This document shows positions 22,854 through 32,050 of a stretch of 34,318 bases of DNA, piece after piece. Both the position numbers and the translations under genes were made by a program. This DNA comes from an uncultured Lachnospiraceae bacterium (GTDB lineage: Bacteria; Bacillota; Clostridia; Lachnospirales; Lachnospiraceae): positions 1 to 34,318 of the forward strand of contig CAJOIL010000002.1 in NCBI GenBank assembly GCA_905234525.1, read 5' to 3'. Below the pieces are notes generated by a model. That model saw only the letters and a program-made list of their open reading frames with translations, was not told where the DNA came from and made no database searches. How positions within the stretch are numbered: position 1 is the first letter of the stretch; each line of letters starts with the position of its first letter.

Positions 22854-22903
22854 TGTGTCAGGGGGACGTGTAGCATAAGACCACAATCCCTGCGAATGAC
22901 ACA
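22854..22903. repeat. Degenerate REP-like element TGTGTCAGGGGGACGTGT...TGACACA
   Basis: 7-bp outer stem TGTGTCA/TGACACA and a GGGGGACGTGT core shared with the 30093-30122 element. Confidence 0.5.
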
Positions 22904-30092: not shown

Positions 30093-30122
30093 TGTGTCAC
30101 CGGACACGTCCCCCCTGACACA
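30093..30122. repeat. REP-like hairpin TGTGTCAGGGGGGACGTGTCCGGTGACACA abutting the queF stop
   Basis: 7-bp outer stem TGTGTCA/TGACACA with G-rich GGGGGGACG core. Confidence 0.75.
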
Positions 30123-30614
30123 CTATCTGTTATCTACTACTTCCGGATTCATGTCATGATGCGACAATCTCTCCCATGCAAGCTCTTCCCATTTAGTACC
30201 GGACATGCCGTAATTGCAATACGGATCGATTGAGATTCCACCTCTCGGAAGGAATCTACCGAGCACTTCGATATATTTAGGTTCCATCAGCTTGATTAAA
30301 TCCTTCATTATTGTATTAACACAATCCTCGTGAAAATCACCCTTGTTCCTATAAGATAATAAATACAGCTTAAGACTTTTGCTCTCTACCATTCGTTCAT
30401 TCGGCACATAGGAAATCGTAATTGTTGCAAAGTCAGGCTGACCCGTAATAGGACATAACGATGTGAATTCCGGACAATTGAATTTAACAAAATAATCATT
30501 ATCCTTATGCTTATTCTCAAATGTCTCTAATATATCAGGATTATATTCATTGTCATACTTGACTCCCTTGTTGCCAAGTAATGTAAGCTCTTCTCTGTCT
30601 CTCATAATATGCAA
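30123..30614 (-). CDS. queF: PreQ1 synthase (NADPH-dependent 7-cyano-7-deazaguanine reductase)
   Basis: [42 protein letters not shown]. Confidence 0.97.
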
Positions 30615-30621
30615 TCCTCAC

Positions 30622-30702
30622 CGCGACAGGGGGACGGGTTCCTTGTCGCGCTTTTCTTTAGATAGTACTATTCTCGCGACAAGGAACCCGTCCCCCTGTC
30701 GC
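30622..30702. repeat. Paired inverted REP-like element (BIME-like) 1, overlapping the 3' end of queC
   Basis: CGCGACAGGGGGACGGGTTCCTTGTCGCG (30622-30650), 24-nt spacer, 28-bp exact inverted copy (30675-30702). Confidence 0.95.
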
Positions 30703-31374
30703 AGGATCTGTGACACCGTTAAGCTCGAACGCTTTCGCTCTATCGATACATGTGCCGCATTTACCACAAGGCTTGTCGCCGCCCTCATAACACGACCAAG
30801 TCAGTTCATAGGGTACACCAAGTTCAAGTCCTCTCCCCACAACATCAGCCTTGTTCATATTAACAAACGGTGCTTCTATCTTAACCTGATGACCGCTTCC
30901 TTCATAAATGGCGGTATTCATTGCATTATTAAATACATCTGAACAATCCGGATAAGCGAACCCTGCGGCATCATCTGAATGCACACCGTAGTAAATCACT
31001 TCACAACCCTTACTGATTGCAATTCCCGCAGCTATCGACAAGAATATTCCGTTACGAAACGGCACATAAGTACTTACAGGCGTTTCACCGCCGGTCTTTT
31101 TTATCTGCTCATCATAGCTTTCCTTGGGGATAGTGTCATCTGAATGCTTTAATAATGAACTATTGCTATACTTGAATATATTAGATATGTCTGTCTCAAT
31201 GTGCTTAACATCATAATGCTTTGCAACTGCCCTCGCAGACTCTAATTCCTTCGTGTGCGTCTGACCGTATGTTATCGATAATGATATTACATTATCATGT
31301 CCGTTTAATCGGACAGCTTCTGCAAGTGCTGTGGTTGAATCTATTCCTCCACTGGATAATACAAGTACTTTCAT
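30658..31374 (-). CDS. queC: 7-cyano-7-deazaguanine synthase; C-terminal residues encoded by the REP-like repeat
   Basis: VLSSGGIDSTTAL; SITYGQTH; VPFRNGIFLSIAAGIA; CYEGGDKPCGKCGTCIDRAKAF. Confidence 0.97.
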   Translation of the reverse strand: MKVLVLSSGGIDSTTALAEAVRLNGHDNVISLSITYGQTHTKELESARAVAKHYDVKHIETDISNIFKYSNSSLLKHSDDTIPKESYDEQIKKTGGETPVSTYVPFRNGIFLSIAAGIAISKGCEVIYYGVHSDDAAGFAYPDCSDVFNNAMNTAIYEGSGHQVKIEAPFVNMNKADVVGRGLELGVPYELTWSCYEGGDKPCGKCGTCIDRAKAFELNGVTDPATGGRVPCRENSTI

Positions 31375-31387
31375 TGACGCCTCTCAA

Positions 31388-31470
31388 GCGCGACAGGGGG
31401 ACGGGTCCCTTGTCGCGCACGAGTTAATTACCACAATTCCCGCGACAAGGAACCCGTCCCCCTGTCGCGC
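31388..31470. repeat. Paired inverted REP-like element (BIME-like) 2, between folE and queC
   Basis: CGCGACAGGGGGACGGGTCCCTTGTCGCG (31389-31417), 23-nt spacer, inverted copy (31441-31469) identical to element 1's arm. Confidence 0.95.
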
Positions 31471-31471
31471 T

Positions 31472-32050
31472 TTACCTCACATATATCTGCAGTGACGGGT
31501 CTGTCTTGAATTCGCCCCTTAGCTCTGCTGTAAATGTCTTAGTGTTATTCTTCTTAATCCCCCTGGCATTAACGCAGCTGTGACAGCCTTCGATTGTTAC
31601 CGCTACATTATCCGTATCAACTATCTCGCTGATTATATCAGCTATATCCTTGCCGATTCGCTCTTGCAATTGAAGACGACGAGCCGCCATATCACACACT
31701 CTCGCAATCTTAGATAAGCCGATCACTTTGCCATTGGGAATATACGCAACATTAACCTTCATATCATACATAAGCGCAAGATGGTGCTCACAATACGAGA
31801 ATATATCAATATTACGCATCACAATAACACGTCCAATCATGTTATCCGTAACATCTTCCAGTGATTCTTCAAATGTCTTATTGAACATCTCAGCAATCTC
31901 ATGATTGGTATAATTCATACCTTCAAACACTTCTTCATACATCTTGGCCACTCTTGCCGGAGTATCAACAAGCCCTTCACGAGTAGGGTCGTCACCTATT
32001 GCTTCGATTATTCCTCTGATATGTTCTTCAATTGCCTTTGTATCTATCAT
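31472..32050 (-). CDS. folE: GTP cyclohydrolase I
   Basis: [59 protein letters not shown]. Confidence 0.97.

Follow-up and report, generated by a model that had tools for sequence, protein, structure and literature searches.

The queC gene of an uncultured Lachnospiraceae bacterium (probably a member of the genus Pseudobutyrivibrio) is bracketed by two short elements that are very likely REPINs, i.e., non-autonomous units of two inverted REP hairpins, spread by a RAYT-type Y1 (HUH/tyrosine) transposase encoded on another contig (C60). Both elements belong to a single family of about 50 dispersed loci in this genome. The window, meaning the whole stretch of DNA that was analysed, is 34,318 nucleotides long, and the features around queC are as follows:

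30123..30614, minus strand: queF, with a likely ATG at 30605, 17 nt downstream of REPIN 1.
30622..30703, no strand: putative REPIN 1, on the queC-queF side, with arm 30622-30650 (+), spacer 30651-30674 and inverted arm 30675-30703 (-); based on the four-arm match, the fold and its absence from seven congeners.
30658..31374, minus strand: queC, based on a Pfam QueC match (8e-61), the translation and congener sequences.
31389..31469, no strand: putative REPIN 2, in the folE-queC gap, with arm 31389-31417 (+; T-to-C variant), spacer 31418-31440 and inverted arm 31441-31469 (-); based on the arm match, the fold and a congener gap of a few nt.
31472..32050, minus strand: folE, GTP cyclohydrolase I, whose stop codon begins 3 nt from REPIN 2.

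The original prediction of four 29-nt arm copies in two inverted pairs around queC was borne out at these positions, and none was expected by chance (0 of 100 shuffles). Its account of the arm match also holds: two arms are exact, the arm at 30675-30703 differs at its outermost base only, so that 28 bp are present, and the arm at 31389 carries a single T-to-C change relative to the others. As had been proposed, this change turns a G-T (or, in RNA, G-U) pair into a G-C pair. Folded as single-stranded DNA, an isolated arm reaches -8.7 kcal/mol (z -3.6) in the T form and -10.9 kcal/mol (z -4.2) in the C form, which gains two extra stem pairs, and whole elements form one long hairpin per pair (-37 to -41 kcal/mol, z about -11 to -13). 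Read as mRNA, the window elements have predicted folds of -68 and -77 kcal/mol; the earlier suggestion was that either could form a structure in the folE-queC-queF mRNA. The spacers are 24 nt (REPIN 1) and 23 nt (REPIN 2) long, as described before, but they are not unrelated, as had been claimed, since both are diverged members of one homologous cluster. Similarly, recombination between the elements could delete queC, as suggested, but inversion is just as possible, each element being an inverted repeat in its own right.

The host genome is a 1.85 Mb draft of 134 contigs, an assembly in which repeats can be misjoined, and copies in it were counted by pattern search. The arm core has 87 matches at up to 2 mismatches (45 forward, 42 reverse), compared with 2 for a reversed control pattern. 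As predicted for a dispersed repeat, the 29-mer occurs about 81 times, mostly in inverted pairs; the 81 arms counted in the retrieved loci comprise 32 inverted pairs and 17 unpaired arms, with some at contig ends or decayed. The REP-spacer-inverted-REP layout is likewise maintained, with a modal spacer of 23-24 nt, a range of 13 to 48 nt, and many singleton spacers. Twelve spacers, including both at queC, form one homologous cluster of 23-25 nt that occurs in either orientation. Arm variants are coupled within pairs: 19 pairs are TTC/TTC, nine are TCC/TCC, and four are mixed, and within-pair arm differences total 19 compared with a permuted mean of 36.0 (0 of 5000 permutations). Since the arms of a pair share variants, the data are most simply read as spread or homogenisation of whole pairs.

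Spacer lengths in this genome cluster near 13, 24, 34-36 and 44-48 nt, at intervals of roughly one helical turn. Helical phasing (13, 24, 34, 44 nt) had a p of about 0.001 for hand-picked independent lengths and was not clearly reproduced in a second genome, G009. On contig C105, two elements with 48-nt spacers (locus L061, 481-586 and 3655-3760) are mutually inverted copies, about 3 kb apart.

Placement relative to genes was scored with our own crude ORF calls. The 34 scored intergenic copies are distributed as 21 minus-minus, 8 plus-plus, 5 convergent, and 0 divergent. A check against stop codons, which had been recommended with the original prediction, placed about 23 of 49 copies within 8 bp of one, and 13 copies lie inside ORFs. 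MurT, a Mem_trans transporter, and TrmK are each interrupted by an in-frame copy, and a GlfT2-like glycosyltransferase is interrupted twice; in QueC, an MtnA-like, and an Nth-like protein, a copy lengthens the end of the protein. The MurT insert is absent in congeners. The T-rich spacer has no consistent orientation relative to genes that would indicate a terminator, and one site (fba-like) is suggestive. On contig C76 (L054, around 1500-1640), a REPIN with a T-rich stretch after its first arm lies where four congeners (L249-L252) have an intrinsic-terminator-like hairpin ending the upstream gene.

Comparison with congeners shows the unoccupied state at the que operon, which lacks the elements in 7 of the 7 congeners searched. 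There, only a few nt separate the folE stop from the queC start, and the GTGAGG ahead of the queC start sits in the folE end, whereas the host gap consists of the 81-bp element plus 16 nt, and a new GAGAGG lies ahead of queC. Congener QueC stops shortly after DPA, whereas the host frame runs on through an arm, such that the last QueC residues (ATGGRVPCRENSTI) are encoded by the right arm of REPIN 1 and the stop codon lies within its spacer, a point that the original coordinates leave out. Both window elements appear from this comparison to be recent insertions, with REPIN 1 replacing the QueC end and REPIN 2 filling the folE-queC gap. The two insertions would post-date the divergence of the host from the other sequenced congeners, would have altered the QueC end as well as the gap, and would add two strong hairpins to the folE-queC-queF mRNA, with a possible effect on expression.

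A single full Y1_Tnp gene is present in the host genome, outside the window (C60:2077-2859; Y1_Tnp match 6e-13), with an additional weak Y1_Tnp fragment on contig C74. The gene is an intact open frame whose 248-aa product contains the motifs NHVH, LFQGR, YILQNP, and WSS, and its C-terminal tail, SMRQIERLTGISKDIIYR, is helix-turn-helix-like, with weak matches to HTH Pfam models. Its best relatives are about 52% identical. A profile built from the family matches the solved structure of E. coli TnpAREP (4er8; E=4e-4), and the NCBIfam model for REP-associated transposases scores 50 bits, below its cut-off of 80. Identical elements flank the gene, at 143 bp on the upstream side and 6 bp on the downstream side, which is a REPtron architecture. 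The proposal to look for a RAYT gene bordered by the same palindrome, none being encoded in the window, was thus answered by one such gene elsewhere in the genome.

According to the 2018 survey (Quentin 2018, PMC6006769), subclass 2.1 contains nearly all RAYT group 1 sequences; it also contains most TIRYTs of Di Nocera 2013 (PMC3733652). Its members are characterised by NHVH, FQ, Y--NP, and SS motifs, a length of about 240 aa, and a C-terminal HTH (PMC6006769). By motifs, length, and C-terminal HTH, the C60 transposase matches subclass 2.1 (TIRYT / RAYT group 1). The 2018 survey reports no REP-like sequences for subclass 2.1 (PMC6006769), and TIR repeats have been published with GGGGWSAS, some TIR families being moderately repeated (PMC3733652). 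Near the C60 gene, REP-like sequences are present as hairpin pairs on both sides, in addition to the genomic population. Compared with GGGGWSAS, the core of the host family, GGGGACGG, is one base off, and relatives carry GGGGACAG or GGGGTCAG besides GGGGACGG. Two congeners (G200 and G201) encode sister transposases with flanks that contain the core GGGGACGGTCC.

The association between transposase and repeat extends beyond this genome. Our comparison covered 200 genomes of the family, one per genus, of which 46 (host included) have a homologous transposase, as well as 80 further named transposase loci, drawn from Bacillota together with a few other phyla. At 72 of 99 transposase loci, the upstream flank has at least 14 identical bases in common with the downstream flank, compared with 5 of 93 controls; the shared sequence is mostly around GGGGAC, and the core is found on both sides in 71 of the 99 loci. 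At least 15 genomic copies of GGGGACGGTTC occur in 10 of 45 transposase-bearing genomes versus 2 of 154 others (Fisher p=7e-6), and in 9 of the 10 genomes whose transposases are the most closely related (p=2e-12), p-values that are somewhat optimistic because the genomes are related. Inverted-pair matches number 43 in G009, 31 in G079, 29 in G089, and 17 in G045, with 0 for the reversed-pattern control. Additionally, core variants are distributed in line with the transposase tree (32 changes, compared with a shuffled mean of 47.8; 0 of 200). G009 and G039 have 122 and 21 copies of GGGGACGGTTC, respectively, and no transposase match, perhaps as a result of loss or an assembly gap. A text search of the open-access literature returned no paper describing GGGGACGGTTC as a repeat, which is weak evidence of novelty.

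The host family resembles the REPINs and REPtrons of RAYT groups 2 and 3 (TnpAREP 2.2 and 2.5; E. coli, Pseudomonas, Stenotrophomonas) in its dispersed, mostly extragenic pairs of inverted palindromes and in having one copy of a Y1 transposase gene with these repeats on either side. However, compared with those systems (PMC6006769, PMC8266576), the host elements have the core GGGGGACGGG instead of a GTAG foot, and the transposase is of another subclass, with a C-terminal helix-turn-helix, and from a Lachnospiraceae host. No GTAG/GTRG tetranucleotide was found at the hairpin foot, where the outward flank is C followed by A/T-rich sequence. The REP-linker-inverted REP layout is also that of E. 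coli BIMEs, but the sequence is unrelated and GTAG is again lacking. With TIRtrons and their TIRYTs, the host system shares transposase motifs, length, and HTH, and has inverted repeats with a GGGG-rich core at both ends of the gene, as they do; the differences are the hairpin pairs, the population of about 50 loci, and the core GGGGACGG. Rickettsia palindromic elements and other intragenic REPs are similarly read in frame in conserved proteins, but the Rickettsia conorii repeats are of the CGTC type, for which no transposase is known (PMC3733652), whereas a flanked transposase is present here. An unpaired CGTC at the hairpin end was not found, and CGTC occurs solely inside the arm core (CCCGTCCCC). 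What appears to be new is the combination of REPINs with a subclass-2.1 transposase, hairpins without a GTAG foot, and a shared GGGGAC core. The enzyme that apparently multiplied the family is a single-strand DNA transposase, and its type had been reported without such repeats.

In the favoured reading, that of REPINs spread by the C60 enzyme, each arm would fold as a hairpin on single-stranded DNA, and the transposase would recognise the stem and the GGGGGACGGG core, its tyrosine cutting near the hairpin foot. The element, usually as a two-arm unit, would then be inserted into new single-stranded sites, and the copies left by selection would be those just past stop codons, those between co-directional genes, and those in frame in tolerant loops. 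The observations themselves establish the architecture, the dispersal, the flanked transposase, the unoccupied sites, the coupling of the arms, and the association across the family; cutting and the single-strand mode are what we infer, and mobility is suggested by architecture and comparison.

Several other readings bear on the same observations. A que-specific RNA regulatory element (e.g., a queuosine-precursor sensor or a processing hairpin) that occurs twice by chance would agree with the location of both queC copies within one biosynthetic operon and with their very stable RNA folds. However, dozens of copies lie beside unrelated host genes, and none is found in the same operon of the seven congeners, such that this reading is highly improbable. 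The combination named earlier as contradicting a dispersed repeat, no further copies together with conservation across genera, did not occur. A regulatory-only origin is excluded by the genome-wide copies and the absence from congener que operons, and a secondary regulatory effect is possible. We give an equally slight chance to the possibility that the elements are MITEs with terminal inverted repeats, moved by a conventional DDE transposase. The shape is MITE-like, with two inverted repeats and a short centre in about 82 bp, but each arm is itself a hairpin, and the gene with the repeat at both ends encodes a Y1/HUH enzyme. Flanking direct repeats of at least 4 bp are found in 5 of 32 pairs, compared with about 1.5 expected by shuffling; because these matches are barely above the shuffled expectation and have no fixed length, no target-site duplication is evident, and they were not taken as evidence of one. 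It is somewhat less improbable, though still unlikely, that the arms owe their spread to homologous recombination or gene conversion between old copies and that transposition is no longer active. Arms are near-identical while spacers diverge, and the one transposase is diverged and single-copy, as this reading would have it, but the que and murT copies are absent from congeners and the transposase frame is intact and open, which points to insertion within the history of the species.

A further reading concerns the spacers, and we consider it doubtful but a genuine possibility: the transposase inserts single arms, and where two of them have been inserted 20-50 nt apart, the native host DNA between them then appears as the spacer. 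Variation in spacer length and the many singletons are in line with this. Additionally, the spacer may be native host DNA between two arms in three in-gene copies. In murT, 15 nt of native sequence are gone outside the arms, but its TTCTGATAATG lies in the spacer (shuffle p=0.002). Without its arms, the Mem_trans sequence is 7 nt shorter than most congeners, and without the whole element it is 43 nt shorter, and in trmK the native linker is likewise gone outside the arms. However, the homology of 12 spacers and the variants shared by the arms of one element argue against bracketing. Conservation is poor in the linkers that were compared, and insertion of a whole unit accompanied by a small deletion would explain the data as well. 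Between genes, the congener sequences have diverged too far for a comparison with the spacers. The corresponding general proposal, that subclass-2.1 transposases insert arms in inverted pairs around short target DNA and that many spacers are captured host sequence, is equally tentative. If true, bracketing would be unlike unit transposition, and would explain both the de novo origin of REPINs and their in-frame entry into genes.

If the favoured reading of REPINs mobilised by the C60 transposase is correct, REPIN-transposase systems, known mainly from Proteobacteria and with GTAG hairpins, would extend to a large Bacillota transposase group, and the GGGGAC... core would provide a defined sequence for finding such systems in Bacillota. 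Because core variant and transposase subtype are so closely tied, hairpin recognition could be tested by interspecies hairpin swaps, and the copies in murT, trmK, and queC illustrate how such elements reshape proteins.

Other repeats and rearrangements were also observed. A second family, a single hairpin with a related core (GTGTCA...GGGGGACGTGTCC...TGACAC), is present in the window at 30093-30123 and 22856-22873, and elsewhere at C24:9855, C36:15893, and C76:7532; no transposase belonging to this family was detected in the host genome. In G205 (L222), the queC-queF gap, the same gap as that of REPIN 1, contains a different repeat, in two tandem copies with CACACCCCGTTCGGGGTGCG. On contig C24 (L034:11185-11901), a REPIN is in frame in whiA, and its spacer is the same as in another copy at a distance of 2.7 kb. 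Relative to the usual length of WhiA, most of the N-terminal domain seems to be missing, with the REPIN in its place, which would be due either to a deletion by recombination or to a misjoin in the assembly.
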